Assembly (NCBI GenBank): GCA_016342345.1
Contig: JAEINO010000015.1
Span: 1-64,000 of the forward strand
Source of the DNA: Pseudodesulfovibrio sp.
Lineage (GTDB): Bacteria; Desulfobacterota; Desulfovibrionia; Desulfovibrionales; Desulfovibrionaceae
Length of the DNA: 64,000 bases
Reading direction: 5' to 3'
Shown here: one piece after another, positions 28,599 through 35,794 of the stretch
How the letters are laid out: each line of letters starts with the position of its first letter
Numbering within the stretch: the first letter of the stretch is position 1
Position numbers and translations under genes: made by a program
The notes under the pieces: model-generated
Database searches by the model: none
What the model saw: the letters and a program-made list of their open reading frames with translations, nothing else
Told to the model about the DNA's origin: nothing

Positions 28599-30257
28599 CT
28601 ATTTGCCAAAAGAGCATTTGGGGAATGTGCAGGTCTTGCATTCGTGGCAGAGTCCGCCTTCTCCCAGTTCTGCGAGGTCGGATCGTGTTATGCATACATC
28701 GGCCAGCAATCTTGGCAGCAGCAGATCAAGGCTTGTGGTCTTGTGGAACAGGGCGCAGGCCGGAACGCCCAGAACCTGTACCAGTCCCAGATGGCCCAGT
28801 AGGCTCATGGCTCCGGGCAGCACTGGCATGCCATACAGCATTTCCGTGACCCCGGCATCCTGAAGTCCTTTTCTGGTAACATCGTCCGGGTCAACGGACA
28901 GTCCCGCAGTGGTGATTATCAGGTCGCATTTTTCGTTAACAAGGTCTTTGATGGCACTGCAGATGTCTTCTGCGTTGTCCGGTGCCTTGATGGTCTTGAT
29001 AACCGTGCTGCCATAATGGGCCACCTTGGCGGAAATGACGGGCTCGAATTTGTCTTCCACAAGCCCGGAGAAGACTTCGGTTCCGGTGATCAACACACCG
29101 ACACGTGCCTTTCGTAGCGGGCGGATCGAGAAGAGCGGTTCTTCGTCCAGAACCTGAAGTGCTGCCTCGAAATCCTTGGTCGGAAGATAGAGCGGAATGG
29201 CGCGGGTTCCGGCTATCTGGGTGCCTTTTTGCACGATGGAATACGATTGACGTGAAGCACACATGACGCCAGGGACATGATTGAATTGCTTCAGCCTGGT
29301 CGAGTCCACGAAAAGCAAGCCGTCTTGATCTGCCACGAGTTTTGATTTTCCTTCACGAGGGTCACCCAGCACGGTGACGCCTGGGCCGGACATGAGCTTT
29401 CCGAAAGCTGTTGCAGCCTTGTTCTCGTGGACCCATTCGATTCCAGGGTCCTGATCGTCAAGATAGATACGGCTTCGACCCATGCGTTGTAGGCGACAGA
29501 CATCACCACCGGTCAGGAGTTGGCCGTGTTTGAATTCAGGCCCCTTGCTCACTCCGGGTTCTATGCGCGTCATGTCGTGAAGAGGGTGTCCTCCCACGGC
29601 TTTTTCCACTGGCGTTGCGGTCAGTATTGGCTCGCGAATCAATTCTGCGCCAGGACCGTCCATGTACGGGGATTCTCCCTGGCAAGATCGGCAGATCGCT
29701 CCGAATTGAGCAGGGAAGGCCTCGCCGCAGATCGGGCAGGCGATAATAGTGCCCTTGCTGCGCTTGATGAGTTGCTCGGGCCTGACTTGCACATCGCGCA
29801 TGGAGCAGATGCTGGCACCAGCTTCGAGGATCTGGCGACGCAGTAGCGGGGAGTCCTGCTCCTGTTTCGGCTTGCTTTTCATGAGCCATGTGCGGATTTC
29901 TGAATCAGGATCGATTTTGTCCAGATCAAGCCACAGGCGTACACCTTTGCCGGTAAATTTGTCATAAAGGCAAACTGAATACAGGCCGAGATTCAGGATT
30001 TTCAGCCAGCCGTTGCCAACAGAGCAGGGGGAAAGCATCTGTACTGCATCAGGCAGACACCACGATGTTTCACTGATCGCGTCGAAAAGGATGTCATCGG
30101 GCAGAGCCTTGATGGCCGCATCCACCATGAATCCGCCAAGAACGAGGCCTGGTGCTGCATATCCGTGAAACTGGGTAGCGGCTTCAATGAACTGATCGAT
30201 GGAGTAAGGGCCTATGGTGTCGGACGGTAAAAGGAGGTGTGAGTAGTCGGTAGTCAT
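28599..30257 (-). CDS. FmdE-like N-terminal domain + zinc ribbon + MogA/MoaB-like molybdopterin-binding C-terminal domain
   Basis: N-terminal FmdE-like FHGYAAPGLVLGGFMVDAAI; CPICGEAFPAQFGAICRSCQGE ribbon; GVLITGTEVFSGLVEDKF...DLIITTAGLSVDPDDVTRKGL MoCF signature; Cys-rich tail CHECKTCTFPKC. Confidence 0.8.
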   Translation of the reverse strand: MTTDYSHLLLPSDTIGPYSIDQFIEAATQFHGYAAPGLVLGGFMVDAAIKALPDDILFDAISETSWCLPDAVQMLSPCSVGNGWLKILNLGLYSVCLYDKFTGKGVRLWLDLDKIDPDSEIRTWLMKSKPKQEQDSPLLRRQILEAGASICSMRDVQVRPEQLIKRSKGTIIACPICGEAFPAQFGAICRSCQGESPYMDGPGAELIREPILTATPVEKAVGGHPLHDMTRIEPGVSKGPEFKHGQLLTGGDVCRLQRMGRSRIYLDDQDPGIEWVHENKAATAFGKLMSGPGVTVLGDPREGKSKLVADQDGLLFVDSTRLKQFNHVPGVMCASRQSYSIVQKGTQIAGTRAIPLYLPTKDFEAALQVLDEEPLFSIRPLRKARVGVLITGTEVFSGLVEDKFEPVISAKVAHYGSTVIKTIKAPDNAEDICSAIKDLVNEKCDLIITTAGLSVDPDDVTRKGLQDAGVTEMLYGMPVLPGAMSLLGHLGLVQVLGVPACALFHKTTSLDLLLPRLLADVCITRSDLAELGEGGLCHECKTCTFPKCSFGK

Positions 30258-30326: not shown

Positions 30327-30881
30327 TTATGGTGTCTTGACGTAGATGATTGACTGAGTGCTCATTTTCTTGATTACCTGCTTGCCCTTGGCTTCGGCCT
30401 GCATGAGAAGGATTTCCTTCTCGCCAAAGCTTAAGGCCTCAGTCAGGCAGACATCCACGCATATCGGGTCGAGACCGTGTGTTACGCGCTCGTAGCACAT
30501 GTTGCATTTGTGCGCGTAATTGTCCACTTTATTGAATTGGATGACGTGGTACGGACATTTTTCAATGCACTCGCCGCAACCTGTACATTTTTCCTGGTCA
30601 AAGAGCACGATGCCGGTTTGTTCGTCTTTGGTGATGGCATCGTATTCGCACGCTTTGGCGCAGGGAGTTTTTTTGCAGTGCTGGCACATGACCACCCAAG
30701 AATCTTCCTTCAGATTAGGAAAGACACCTTCAGTCTTGCTTTCCACCCTGATGTAATTCGCCATCTGGCCGGGTTGATCGTTTTCGTGGTCTATTAGTCC
30801 GTGGTGGTTGCGACAGGCCACGATGCAGGTCTTGCATCCGATGCAGCGGTCGAGATCCACCATTATGCTGAGTTGTCTCAT
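30327..30881 (-). CDS. 4Fe-4S dicluster ferredoxin-like subunit (DmsB/PhsB family)
   Basis: CIGCKTCIVACRNHHG, CQHCKKTPCAKACEYDAI, CTGCGECIEKCPY, CNMCYERV. Confidence 0.92.
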   Translation of the reverse strand: MRQLSIMVDLDRCIGCKTCIVACRNHHGLIDHENDQPGQMANYIRVESKTEGVFPNLKEDSWVVMCQHCKKTPCAKACEYDAITKDEQTGIVLFDQEKCTGCGECIEKCPYHVIQFNKVDNYAHKCNMCYERVTHGLDPICVDVCLTEALSFGEKEILLMQAEAKGKQVIKKMSTQSIIYVKTP

Positions 30882-30893
30882 TTCATCCTCCTG

Positions 30894-33029
30894 TTATTTG
30901 TAGATCTTGACCCGGGTCGAAACGTGAGCTTCGCCGCCACGCATGTCCTGCTCATCCAACGTGGAACCGGCATCGGCAATAAGTTCATTGTCGCTTGACC
31001 AGTTGCCTCGGGACGCAACCTTTCCCATGGTGTGTCCAAAGCCGTGAATGATGCCTGCACAACCGGGAATGATCTTTTCCGTAAGCTTGATCGGGATTTC
31101 TATTTTGCCGGTGCTTGATTCCATGGTGACCATGTCGCCCTCTTCGAGGCCGAGTTTTTTGGCATCAATGGGATTAATGAGACACGGGTTGGCATCAAGT
31201 CCAGAGATGGGATCGCGAAGCTGGGCGTTGTTCTGGGACCAGGCTCCGGTATTGTTCAGGAAGATGGTTCTGAAGTTGACCAGTATGAACGGGAATTCCT
31301 CTTCGCCGCGACGGTACTCCAGAGGCAGTTCAGGGCTGGGCCATTCCTGGCCTGCATCCTTGTACATCTGCCATTGAAGCTCGATTTTGCCAGAAGGTGT
31401 GTTGAACTTGCCATTGTCTTCATATTTGCGGAATCCGGCAGCTCCGGGGGACCAGAGGCCTCCGTTTTCCTGAAGCTTTTTCACGGACATGCCCACGCCG
31501 GCCAGTTCGATGTCGTAATATTCAACGTCATCCTTGAATGCAAAGTATTCCGGGAACATGCGCTTGCCAAGATCAATGAAGACACTGTTAGCGTGTCTGG
31601 ATTCACCAATGGGTTTGACCACGGGCTGGCACAGGGCCGCGCCATGAGCAAAGTTGTACCACCAGGGCATGTACAGCAATTCCCAGCGTTCATAGTTGGT
31701 CTGGTCAGGCAACACGAGGTCGGCCCATTTCATGGTTTCCGAGGGCATGATTTCGGTAACAACGAGCAGTTCCAGCTTGTAGCTTCCGTCCTCGTTCTTC
31801 ATGGTAACGGCCTTGCGCCATTCGTTTGAACCCATTTCGGACATTGCAGGGTTGCACTCGGTTGCAATGAAGACTTTGAGGGCATCTTCCTTGATGGCCT
31901 GGGCTGCGTACCAGGTCGGTTGCAGGAAGAAGTTGTAGTTGTCGAATTTTTCACGGTCCTTGCCTGTGCGATGGTAGCCAAGCTCCGCGAGGTCAGGAGC
32001 GGGTGGCACAGGTTCGACTGGTGCCATGGGAGCGATATCAGGCAAGGGCTGCCCGCCGGGATTGTCCAGATTGCCTGTGATGACCAGGAAGATGGTCCAG
32101 GCATGACCCCAATCCATGGCATTACCATACATGATGGACTTGAAGGCATCGATGCAGGCACTGGGTGCTTCCGCGACCATTTTAGCCAGTTTCACGATGT
32201 CAGTTGCCGGAACTTCGCAAATCTTGCTCATTGCTTCCGGGGTTTTGTCCTTGATATATGCCTTGAGGTTGTCCATGTCGCCTTCACGGACCCATTTGTC
32301 ACAGAACGGCACGTTATGCAGGTCGTTTTCCAGAAGGTAGTTGCAAACGCCCAGGAACAGGGATGCGTCTCCGCCCGGCTTGATGGGAATCCACCAGTCG
32401 GCCTTGGAGGCTTCCGTGCGGTAGAGGGGATCGATGACGATGAGCTTGGCTCCGCGATCCTTGGCGTCGAGAATGTGTTTTGGAACACATGCATCATCCA
32501 GACAGCCGAAGGGATGACGACCGGACAGGATCATCAGGCCGCCCTTGGGCACGGTGTTGTACATGGGGGCGATGTGATGGTTGGGGAAGCAGCCGAACGT
32601 ATGAATCATCGCCATGATCTTGCCGGAGTCGCAATGCGGCAGGCCTGTGGATATGAATCCTCCGCAGGCGTTGACGAAACGCCATTTGGGGTCGGTCACG
32701 GAGTGGGGGAACATGGAGTAGGTGAACTTGTGGGCTTCGCCACGATCACGAAGCTCGGTCAGCTTTGTTTCCATGATCTCCATGGCTTCGTCCCAGGTAA
32801 TGCGTTCGAAGTTTCCGCTGCCGCGTTCGCCTACGCGTTTCATGGGAAATTTGAGCCGTTCAGAGGAATACAGCGAGGTTATACCGGCCATGCCCTTGAC
32901 GCAGACCTTGCCGCGACCTCGGGGGTTGCCTTTCACTTCCTTGACGACACCATTTTCCACGCGAGCCAGAATTGCACATTCGGCCTTGCACTGATAGCAA
33001 ATGGTTGGAATCCACCCATCTTCATACAT
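30894..33029 (-). CDS. Molybdopterin-dependent oxidoreductase catalytic subunit (DMSO reductase family), no Tat signal
   Basis: N-terminal Mo4Fe4S motif (CYQCKAEC...GKVCVKG), MPT binding domain, C-terminal NTPSGKIEL/molydop_binding domain; ~711 aa. Confidence 0.92.
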   Translation of the reverse strand: MYEDGWIPTICYQCKAECAILARVENGVVKEVKGNPRGRGKVCVKGMAGITSLYSSERLKFPMKRVGERGSGNFERITWDEAMEIMETKLTELRDRGEAHKFTYSMFPHSVTDPKWRFVNACGGFISTGLPHCDSGKIMAMIHTFGCFPNHHIAPMYNTVPKGGLMILSGRHPFGCLDDACVPKHILDAKDRGAKLIVIDPLYRTEASKADWWIPIKPGGDASLFLGVCNYLLENDLHNVPFCDKWVREGDMDNLKAYIKDKTPEAMSKICEVPATDIVKLAKMVAEAPSACIDAFKSIMYGNAMDWGHAWTIFLVITGNLDNPGGQPLPDIAPMAPVEPVPPAPDLAELGYHRTGKDREKFDNYNFFLQPTWYAAQAIKEDALKVFIATECNPAMSEMGSNEWRKAVTMKNEDGSYKLELLVVTEIMPSETMKWADLVLPDQTNYERWELLYMPWWYNFAHGAALCQPVVKPIGESRHANSVFIDLGKRMFPEYFAFKDDVEYYDIELAGVGMSVKKLQENGGLWSPGAAGFRKYEDNGKFNTPSGKIELQWQMYKDAGQEWPSPELPLEYRRGEEEFPFILVNFRTIFLNNTGAWSQNNAQLRDPISGLDANPCLINPIDAKKLGLEEGDMVTMESSTGKIEIPIKLTEKIIPGCAGIIHGFGHTMGKVASRGNWSSDNELIADAGSTLDEQDMRGGEAHVSTRVKIYK

Positions 33030-33068: not shown

Positions 33069-33203
33069 TTATTCGCCTTGTCGCTCTTTGTCACTTAAAC
33101 GATATTTTTTTCGGTATGTGTTTCCGATGATTCCGATGATCACCCATGCGCCGATAAAGATACCCCAGATGACAGGATTTAACGGGTTGTAATCGTAGTT
33201 CAT
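33069..33203 (-). CDS. Uncalled 44-aa single-TM microprotein between FNT channel and molybdo-enzyme
   Basis: ATG at 33203-33201 overlaps the FNT stop (ATGA); MNYDYNPLNPVIWGIFIGAWVIIGIIGNTYRKKYRLSDKERQGE*, stop at 33069-33071. Confidence 0.75.
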   Translation of the reverse strand: MNYDYNPLNPVIWGIFIGAWVIIGIIGNTYRKKYRLSDKERQGE

Positions 33204-34102
33204 CCACACTCCTTACGGGTTTTGTCCGTTACAATCTGGTCCCGACGTGTGCGGTACATTTCCTTGAGCTTGAGAGGATCGGCCACAAGCTGAAATACCA
33301 CCGCAACAAAAAGAGTTCCGCCAATGAGATTTCCCATGACAGTAAACAACTGATTGTGTGCCCACCCGAATTTTCCGAAGCCCCAATGCATCAGCACGGG
33401 AGTTATATTGTTCATACCGGTAACCGCCTCAAGCCAGAGATCCTGTTGGAAAAGCGGTACTGCCAGAAATCCGATGTTTGCGATGCAATGTTCATTCATG
33501 CCAGCCACAAATGCAAGAGGGCCGTAGGCGGTAAGCATGATCTTGCTCATGTCGTCATTGGTCTTCATGAAAAGGATGGCAGCAGACTGGAGCGTCCATG
33601 TACAGATGATGCCCATGACGAAAATCTCCATGGAGGTTTCACCTGTCTTTGCCAAACCGATGTCGTGTGCCCGCATGAGCCAGGGAAGTGCATGGTAGCC
33701 GCCCCCTTTGCTCATAATCCACATGAATGACATGGACCCGATGAAGTTGCCGATGTAGCCCACCAAGACGCCTAGAAAGAACTGTTTCCACGAAATGCGA
33801 TTGTTAAACACACCCACAAGGCCATAGGCCATGTCTGCGGTTACGAGAGTCATCCCGCTGAACATGATGATTACAAGTGAGAACATGAACACCAATCCCA
33901 TGAGCAGATTGGCCAATCCAGGGGCCAGATTCTCGGACACTCCAGCTGATACGGACAGAGCCAGCATGGCACCGAAACAGACAAACGCACCGCCTGCAAA
34001 TGCTGAGATCAGAAAAGCCATGGGGCGTTTGTTGAGCATCCCCCATTTCTTGTCACAGAGGTCTGCTACCTCAATAATATGTTCCTCGGAATTCAATGGC
34101 AT
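33200..34102 (-). CDS. Formate/nitrite transporter (FNT) family channel
   Basis: Six-TM protein with FVAGMNEHCIANIGFLAVP (FNT EHxxAN motif); AGGAGA SD before ATG 34102 (ORF called from TTG 34105). Confidence 0.9.
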   Translation of the reverse strand: MPLNSEEHIIEVADLCDKKWGMLNKRPMAFLISAFAGGAFVCFGAMLALSVSAGVSENLAPGLANLLMGLVFMFSLVIIMFSGMTLVTADMAYGLVGVFNNRISWKQFFLGVLVGYIGNFIGSMSFMWIMSKGGGYHALPWLMRAHDIGLAKTGETSMEIFVMGIICTWTLQSAAILFMKTNDDMSKIMLTAYGPLAFVAGMNEHCIANIGFLAVPLFQQDLWLEAVTGMNNITPVLMHWGFGKFGWAHNQLFTVMGNLIGGTLFVAVVFQLVADPLKLKEMYRTRRDQIVTDKTRKECG

Positions 34103-34393
34103 CAAATTCTCCTGCTAAAACGCTGGGTGCCCTGTCAGTTGTGAGGGCATAAACATTTTGCTTCTCCCGCAATGGGTTGCATGTTTGTTTTCAATTCCAT
34201 TGTACGGCGCGGTGCACTGCGCGCAGGCTGTTTTTCAACGCCTACAGAATAAAGAGCCATGGCGATCTGAAAAGGTTACCTGTCTGGAGAAAAAAAATGA
34301 AAATCTTGAATTGTATGAGGGAGGCGAATGTCTCTTTTGAAGGGATGATCCTGGTTTGATGCGATCAGGACTTGGATGGCGACGATAAATTTA

Positions 34394-35794
34394 TCAGCAA
34401 AATTCGTTGCATACGAAGTCGTCAAGATTGCAGGTGCGGGACAAGACTCCACTGGCCACGGCAAGTCGCATGAACTCGGCCATCCTGCTTTTGTCCGGTC
34501 TCAAGTTGTCAAAAGTAATGATTTTTTCTTCAAGCACTCGCGCGGCAAGGCTGCTCGAAACTCCTGTGTACATGGCCTGGGTCGCGGCACAGTAATCAAT
34601 GTCGGTATGCAGTTTATCCCTCGCCTGGAGCAGGATCTGGACATAGTCGCTGACACGATCGGGATGGGCCTGATAAAAATCTTCGCGTACCGCTACAACG
34701 CAACAGATATGTCCTGGAGCCATTTCCTTGGAGCGGATAATCTGGTTTGCATCTCCATCGAATACGCATTTGGTGCTCCATGGTTCCGCACAGAAAAATG
34801 CGTCGATAGTCTGCTTTTTCAAGGAATTGATGGCATAGGACGGGTTGGTGTCGGCAATGCTGATATTGTCCCATAGATTTGGATATTCATGGGCCAGCTT
34901 GCTCAGAATTACCCGATGTGTAGAAAACTGGCCTGGAACGCCTACGAGTTTGCCTTGAAGCTTGATGGCTGAAGTGGCAAGCGCGCTTCCGTCATGGTGG
35001 CCGTCCATGATGTATTTGAGGCGTGTCCCGGAATTGCAAAGTTGCATGGCAAGCGGAGCCATGATGAAGGCTGCGTCAATGCGTCCCTGTTTCAAGGCCT
35101 CGGAAAGCGCGCTCCATGACAGAAAACGTTTCATGTGGCTTCGAGAATTCCGTTCTTTTCCAAGCCTATGGGCGACCATGCCCAAAAGATGATCTGAAAT
35201 GGGAAGATACCCGACTCGAATGGAGGATTTGTCAAGTTGTCCGGCAAGCATTTCGGCCAGCAAAGGGTGAGCACTGTGCAGACGTTTGCGCACGGTCCCT
35301 GGCTTCAGAGCAAGTTTGTCAGCGATTTCCTCGATGGAATGACCTGATGCAAAATACAGGTGGCAGACGTCTCGAAGAGGGGCTGACAATTGTGAAAATG
35401 CATTGTTGACCGCAGCCCGGAAGCAAAGTTGTTCATAGCTTGCTGCCGGGTCCATGGATTTTGGGGCCAGAGGCTCGTAGTGCTCCAGTCCATCGAGTGA
35501 TACTTCCCGGCCTCGTTTGCGCAGATGTCGGTAACACTGTGATTTGACGATGGTTTTTAGCCATGGTGCAAAACTTTCAATATTCCGAAGCTGGTCAAGT
35601 TTGGAGAGCGAAATAAGAAGAGATTCCTGCACAACGTCCTGAGCATCTTCATTTGAACGAAGGATATGATTTGCCTGGGCGATAATTACAGGCATCAGAT
35701 CGGAAATCAGCCCACTTAGTTGGCGTGGTTCTTCTCTGGTTTCCGGGTGATTCAATTGCGTATTTTGCAAGTCTGATTTCATGAATTGGGCCAT
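34394..35794 (-). CDS. ECF-type RNA polymerase sigma factor fused to a cytoplasmic NrtA/SsuA/CmpA-like substrate-binding domain
   Basis: Sigma2 (NEDAQDVVQESLLISLSKL...FAPWLKTIVKSQCYRHLRKR), sigma4 (LSAPLRDVCHLYFASGHSIEEIADKLALKPGTVRKRLHSA), then IRVGYLPISDHLLGMVAHRLG...ALKQGRIDAAFIMAPLAMQL...AINSLKKQTIDAFFCAEPW. Confidence 0.88.
   Translation of the reverse strand: MAQFMKSDLQNTQLNHPETREEPRQLSGLISDLMPVIIAQANHILRSNEDAQDVVQESLLISLSKLDQLRNIESFAPWLKTIVKSQCYRHLRKRGREVSLDGLEHYEPLAPKSMDPAASYEQLCFRAAVNNAFSQLSAPLRDVCHLYFASGHSIEEIADKLALKPGTVRKRLHSAHPLLAEMLAGQLDKSSIRVGYLPISDHLLGMVAHRLGKERNSRSHMKRFLSWSALSEALKQGRIDAAFIMAPLAMQLCNSGTRLKYIMDGHHDGSALATSAIKLQGKLVGVPGQFSTHRVILSKLAHEYPNLWDNISIADTNPSYAINSLKKQTIDAFFCAEPWSTKCVFDGDANQIIRSKEMAPGHICCVVAVREDFYQAHPDRVSDYVQILLQARDKLHTDIDYCAATQAMYTGVSSSLAARVLEEKIITFDNLRPDKSRMAEFMRLAVASGVLSRTCNLDDFVCNEFC

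Follow-up and report, generated by a model that had tools for sequence, protein, structure and literature searches.

An ECF sigma factor fused to a solute-binding domain: a putative cytoplasmic one-component regulator of a molybdenum oxidoreductase operon in Desulfovibrionia

ECF sigma factors are usually restrained by anti-sigma factors, and few of them carry on-board sensors. C-terminal extensions can act as such on-board regulators (PMC8999054, PMC9023288), and metal-binding tails, SnoaL-like domains and TPR domains are the on-board sensors described in reviews. The protein analyzed here is encoded in a 64,000-nucleotide stretch of DNA from Pseudodesulfovibrio sp. (contig JAEINO010000015.1, hereafter the window). 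It resembles the extension-regulated ECF sigma factors in its sigma2–sigma4 core, in the lack of an anti-sigma gene and in its C-terminal, here predicted, regulatory domain in the same chain; unlike them, it carries as its tail a full solute-binding fold of about 280 residues, which was not described in the literature cited. We failed to find any report of a sigma–NMT1 or sigma–periplasmic-binding fusion; the main ECF classification (10.1093/nar/gkaa1229) lay outside the search, and the fusion is possibly already listed there as an ECF group.

NasS is a cytoplasmic sensor of nitrate and nitrite (PMC3795266). Like the fusion, it is a cytoplasmic sensor built from an ABC solute-binding fold and controls a molybdenum-enzyme operon; however, it is a separate protein sequestering an RNA-binding antiterminator, whereas the receptor of the fusion is covalently attached to the sigma factor and has the pocket motifs of the 3un6 group. 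By analogy, the fusion would work like a fused NasS, yet it is not NasS; no linked NasT (ANTAR protein) was found, only operon genes being conserved beside the fusion. The C-terminal domain of CmpC/NrtC, which is a fold match, is also a cytoplasmic regulatory solute-binding fold, but its target is a transporter ATPase and not transcription. Proteins of the 3un6 type, including that of the NitT/TauT ABC system encoded beside clade B Ni-CODH, have the motifs GYLPIT, FxSW, GHxxG, STH, AEP and CC in common with the fusion; they are, however, exported and accompanied by genes of ABC permeases and ATPases, both of which the fusion lacks. REC-NMT1_2-CheW (CheV-like) proteins use the same binding-domain family as a cytoplasmic signalling module, but they form a separate clade, and their output is chemotaxis coupling rather than transcription.

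The fusion was encoded by an ORF of 466 codons on the minus strand (34394–35794) with an ATG start and without a single internal stop, as originally predicted; the precise start codon is uncertain. Its assignment was based on Pfam, PDB sequence matches, an AlphaFold model and conservation of the fusion. Sigma region 2 (residues 29–96, 35507–35710, minus strand; PF04542 Sigma70_r2, E = 1.9e-12) and sigma region 4 (residues 129–174, 35273–35410, minus strand; PF08281 Sigma70_r4_2, E = 6e-6) were both above the curated Pfam cut-offs, while regions 1 and 3 were absent according to Pfam. Regions 2 and 4, without region 1 or 3, make up an ECF sigma factor, and the NCBIfam sigma70-ECF profile matched the fusion with 70.6 bits (cut-off of 42.9). 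The extension following sigma4, about 280 residues with a two-lobed solute-binding fold, was an NMT1_2/SsuA-type domain (residues 189–466, 34397–35230, minus strand) recognized by PF13379, by the fold match to 3un6 and by conservation in 31 fusions. The PF13379 (NMT1_2) match covered residues 187–394 (E = 5e-21, 76.1 bits vs a curated cut-off of 24.7); SsuA_fam (TIGR01728) gave 77.4 bits, not reaching its curated cut-off of 163.5, and the match to the NrtA profile was weak (1.8e-7).

A PDB sequence search retrieved the solute-binding protein 3un6 (1.1e-16) and ECF sigma factors. The AlphaFold model had a mean pLDDT of 73.6, with values of about 90 in sigma4, mostly 75–95 in the binding domain, and the lowest ones at the N-terminus and in the sigma2–sigma4 linker. 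In the fold search with this model, 3un6 from S. aureus was at the top (E = 3.8e-19, TM 0.86 by target length), followed by TauA, SsuA, NrtA, the CmpC regulatory domain and CmpA. The predicted order of sigma2, sigma4 and a solute-binding fold was thus borne out by the Pfam HMMs, the model and the fold search. Of the NrtA/SsuA/CmpA-like character proposed for the domain, the solute-binding fold held, but the closest solved relative is 3un6 and not NrtA or CmpA. The nitrate, bicarbonate and sulfonate ligands suggested along with it stay at the level of candidates, since the solved member of the subfamily nearest to the domain is a zinc-bound protein. Neither a membrane segment nor an export signal was found: the maximum mean Kyte–Doolittle value over 19 residues was 1.15 for the fusion and at most 1.75 for 31 homologues, and the N-terminus is sigma2. 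Lacking a hydrophobic stretch, the binding domain should be cytoplasmic, which agrees with the predicted absence of a signal peptide and TM segment.

Regarding distribution, the fusion, which a lack of conservation in related genomes would have refuted, was present in a single frame in 32 of the 348 genomes of the class Desulfovibrionia; alignment, tree and locus comparisons were made with 31 distinct fusions. When each locus was oriented on the sigma strand, every one with enough sequence contained genes of a molybdenum oxidoreductase, a 4Fe-4S protein and exactly one FNT or HPP channel downstream on the same strand. Among the 37 genomes of the class bearing the molybdenum enzyme, 31 also had the fusion. 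No upstream neighbour was conserved across the fusion loci and, therefore, no conserved anti-sigma gene, in line with the absence of an adjoining one that had been noted in the window. ABC permease and ATPase genes were absent from the conserved neighbours (channel, molybdenum enzyme and 4Fe-4S protein).

In the window, the operon began with an FNT (formate/nitrite-type) anion channel of 301 aa (33200–34105, minus strand; PF01226, E = 1.7e-43), for which NirC was the nearest PDB entry (5e-13), although the scores of NirC, HSC and FocA were close together. Formate and hydrosulfide are transported by the FNT family too. The alternative channel, HPP (Pfam TM_HPP), is unrelated to FNT; mapping on the fusion tree gave three or more exchanges between the two, with the invariant residues of the binding domain unchanged. 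The next gene encoded a PsrA/PhsA-like molybdopterin oxidoreductase of 711 aa (30894–33029, minus strand), assigned by Pfam, PDB match and alignment; 2vpw was by far its nearest PDB entry (6.4e-63), and the PhsA equivalog gave 227.6 bits vs a cut-off of 694. Its active-site segment PHCDS was unusual and invariant. The active site of formate dehydrogenase is a Sec/Cys-His pair; this identity was rejected for the operon enzyme, since the invariant C133-D134-S135 was found instead of Cys-His. A 4Fe-4S electron-transfer subunit of 184 aa followed (30327–30881, minus strand; Fer4_11, E = 2.8e-28). A further protein, of 552 aa (28599–30257, minus strand; FmdE, 2.2e-32; MoCF_biosynth, 3.9e-19), carried an FmdE domain, a treble-clef zinc finger and a MoCF-binding domain on a single chain. 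It is a variable part of the operon, present in some loci only and split or shorter in relatives, and is a probable cofactor accessory for the molybdenum enzyme.

Directly 3' of the sigma stop codon, each of the 31 loci had a conserved ECF-type motif, GGTAAC-N19-TCT. A GGAAC-like -35 element near its own gene is typical of an ECF sigma factor, and the promoter type thus agrees with the domain content; the -35 element occurred as GGTAAC, GGGAAC or CCGAAC with a T-rich tail, followed by a 19 nt spacer and TCT. In the window, the predicted promoter of the downstream operon was GGTAACCTTTTC-N10-GGCTCTT (34252–34280, minus strand), about 110 nt beyond the sigma stop codon; no other site in the part of the locus that was scanned scored higher. 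The motifs were trained leave-clade-out, and whole loci were scanned on both strands: the top site within 330 nt past the sigma stop ranked first locus-wide in 29 of the 31 loci, and second and third in the remaining two. The 400 nt preceding the sigma gene contained no comparable site and gave no sign of autoregulation. The same operon occurred without the sigma factor in six genomes, with both kinds of channel, and the promoter was absent from all six loci. In the genome of the window (4.15 Mb), the site at 34252–34280 was the sole exact match, the next one having three mismatches. The presence of the motif in 31 of 31 loci, its absence without the fusion and the single genomic match strongly support the view that the sigma factor and its predicted promoter travel as a pair, and point to a regulon of one operon. 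A loose motif applied to 16 genomes returned many palindromic, terminator-like repeats; for this reason we do not claim a wider regulon.

The binding domain had 32 invariant residues out of 202 among the 31 fusions, sigma2 had 5 of 68, and sigma4 had 3 of 48. The invariant residues clustered in the motifs DHLL, SW, AP, DxHHxGS, STH, CxEPW and HxCC; the conserved motifs are presumed to be loops of the cleft. These pocket motifs were mostly common to 3un6 and to exported binding proteins encoded beside CooS (assigned by TIGR01702) or Mrp-like genes (judged by eye). Residues D201, H202, D264, H266, H267, H293, C335, E337, H362, C364 and C365 were conserved in at least 95% of the fusions. This pattern fits a domain that would still bind a ligand, one that does not differ between operons with FNT and those with HPP.

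In three other loci, L130 (7501–10424), L132 and L138, binding proteins having these pocket motifs adjoined a Prismane/CODH-type gene and ABC genes; the CODH-type gene was CooS by TIGR01702 in L130, and its counterparts in L132 and L138 were judged by eye. These systems represent the transporter linked to clade B CODH (PMC6344411). In other Desulfobacterota, REC-NMT1_2-CheW proteins were encoded in L141 (7388–9343), L142 (7197–9206) and L136 (8820–10856), the last of which also contained a stand-alone NMT1_2 protein with no evident signal peptide adjoining a CheX gene. The CheV-like proteins are an apparent second use of the binding fold as an intracellular signalling module, and such reuse would suggest that ABC binding proteins gave rise to a broader range of receptors inside cells.

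Our preferred interpretation, to which we give a probability of roughly 70%, is that the fusion is a one-component regulator dedicated to a single operon, in which a cytoplasmic ECF sigma factor would sense a small ligand through its C-terminal solute-binding domain. A small ligand inside the cell would be captured by this domain and close its two lobes, altering their contact with the sigma2/sigma4 core; the sigma factor would then be able to bind core RNA polymerase and initiate transcription from a single promoter some 110 nt beyond the sigma stop, so that the FNT or HPP channel, the PsrA/PhsA-like Mo/W oxidoreductase and the accompanying 4Fe-4S protein would be expressed. The sequence comparisons support well the fusion itself, its single origin, the operon linkage and the sigma–promoter pairing; ligand gating is inferred from the pocket with its 32 invariant residues, and activation as the direction of control is assumed from substrate-induction logic. 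That a small molecule directly gates a sigma factor specific for a single operon, by way of a class II solute-binding domain, seems to us somewhat more probable than not. The original prediction of a ligand-gated one-component sigma factor is, on the whole, supported by the operon linkage, the promoter in 31 of 31 loci and a pocket in which conservation is stricter than in the sigma core. On the other side, control in the opposite direction is possible, as in OrbS, where the ligand inhibits (PMC9023288); the domain could answer a protein partner; and six genomes run the operon without the sigma factor, so that the enzyme does not need it.

If the preferred interpretation is true, one protein takes a chemical signal and directs RNA polymerase to a single operon, and this gives a lead to the function of the uncharacterised molybdenum oxidoreductase and of the FNT and HPP channels that replace one another. 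Having only one predicted promoter in its genome, the fusion is a simple system whose ligand binding, conformational change and promoter activation are testable with purified parts, and it is a possible modular biosensor.

The ligand is most likely a substrate or product of the channel or the enzyme. Three kinds of candidates remain: a small anion carried by the channel, with nitrite or nitrate as the known substrate common to the FNT and HPP families and NasS as a precedent; reduced sulfur species, because PsrA/PhsA are the closest relatives of the enzyme and hydrosulfide channels occur within FNT; and a metal or metalloid, because of the His/Cys-rich set of residues, the zinc in 3un6 and the metal-import hypothesis of PMC6344411. 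With nitrate or nitrite as the ligand, the fusion would be a NasS-like sensor (PMC3795266) on a sigma factor that governs a nitrite channel together with a cytoplasmic molybdenum enzyme acting on nitrogen oxyanions. The interchangeable channels are unrelated, yet both families have nitrite transporters, which occur within HPP as well (PMC7438415, PMC4137279), and NirC is the nearest solved FNT. However, the C-D-S site is unlike those of nitrate reductases, the nearest enzyme being PsrA/PhsA, and the wider range of FNT substrates together with the close scores of NirC, HSC and FocA weakens the argument from the channel. A nitrite role also gains nothing from NrfA: by a manual count it occurred in 18 of 32 genomes with the fusion vs 195 of 316 without it, which is no association, and the genome of the window itself yielded no NrfA. 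We regard this assignment as tentative, with the odds against it.

Sensing of a metal or metalloid, in which a metal site would be built from the conserved His and Cys residues and the acidic ones, and the operon would answer metal or metalloid stress, is slightly more doubtful. It draws on the zinc-bound state of 3un6, the nearest solved structure, and on the residue set conserved in at least 95% of the fusions, several members of which are common to 3un6 and the CooS-adjacent binding proteins. Metal import was hypothesised for the clade B Ni-CODH-linked ABC transporters, whose binding protein is 3UN6-like (PMC6344411); the distantly similar SaoX family was placed near heavy-metal handling, and metals are sensed by other ECF extensions (CorE, OrbS). 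Against it, the operon products are an anion channel and a molybdenum oxidoreductase, with neither a metal efflux system nor a metal chaperone among them, and the zinc of 3un6 may stem from crystallisation.

The binding domain could also act as an on-board anti-sigma factor that reads a protein partner, for example an unassembled Mo or 4Fe-4S subunit, and no small ligand. The TPR extensions of ECF42 presumably respond to protein partners (PMC8999054), and the fusion almost always adjoins the molybdenum enzyme. A scaffold, however, would not need the invariant residues, which sit in motifs of the transport relatives as expected for a cleft, and the same subfamily was reused in CheV-like signalling proteins; we consider this reading improbable.

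In the binding-domain tree, all 31 distinct fusions formed one clade with a support of 100/100. The homologues were about 33–74% identical to the protein of the window, and several came from finished, single-contig genomes. Pseudodesulfovibrio, Nitratidesulfovibrio and Desulfovibrio were the genera among the retrieved records, plus one Desulfobacterales MAG; beyond the class, no fusion was found in a sampled search of the phylum. A single origin and long retention of the fusion are well supported by these comparisons. Joining of two genes by a sequencing or assembly artefact, or by the frameshift considered in the original prediction, is ruled out for practical purposes: the source is a draft assembly of 149 contigs, but the same open frame was conserved in 31 distinct homologues, finished single-contig genomes included.

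Among the operon copies without the fusion, those of L146, L147 and L148 belonged to three genomes of another family and had the order HPP, molybdenum enzyme and 4Fe-4S protein. These three loci retained, ahead of HPP, the PilZ gene that precedes the sigma gene in relatives, but no remnant of a sigma gene was found in them; this suggests that the sigma gene was lost there together with its promoter. Genome G024 contained a second copy of the molybdenum operon (L144, 5335–11033), 87% identical, without the sigma factor and promoter. Two ORFs directly upstream of this copy resembled, as judged by eye, a transposase pair of the IS3 type.
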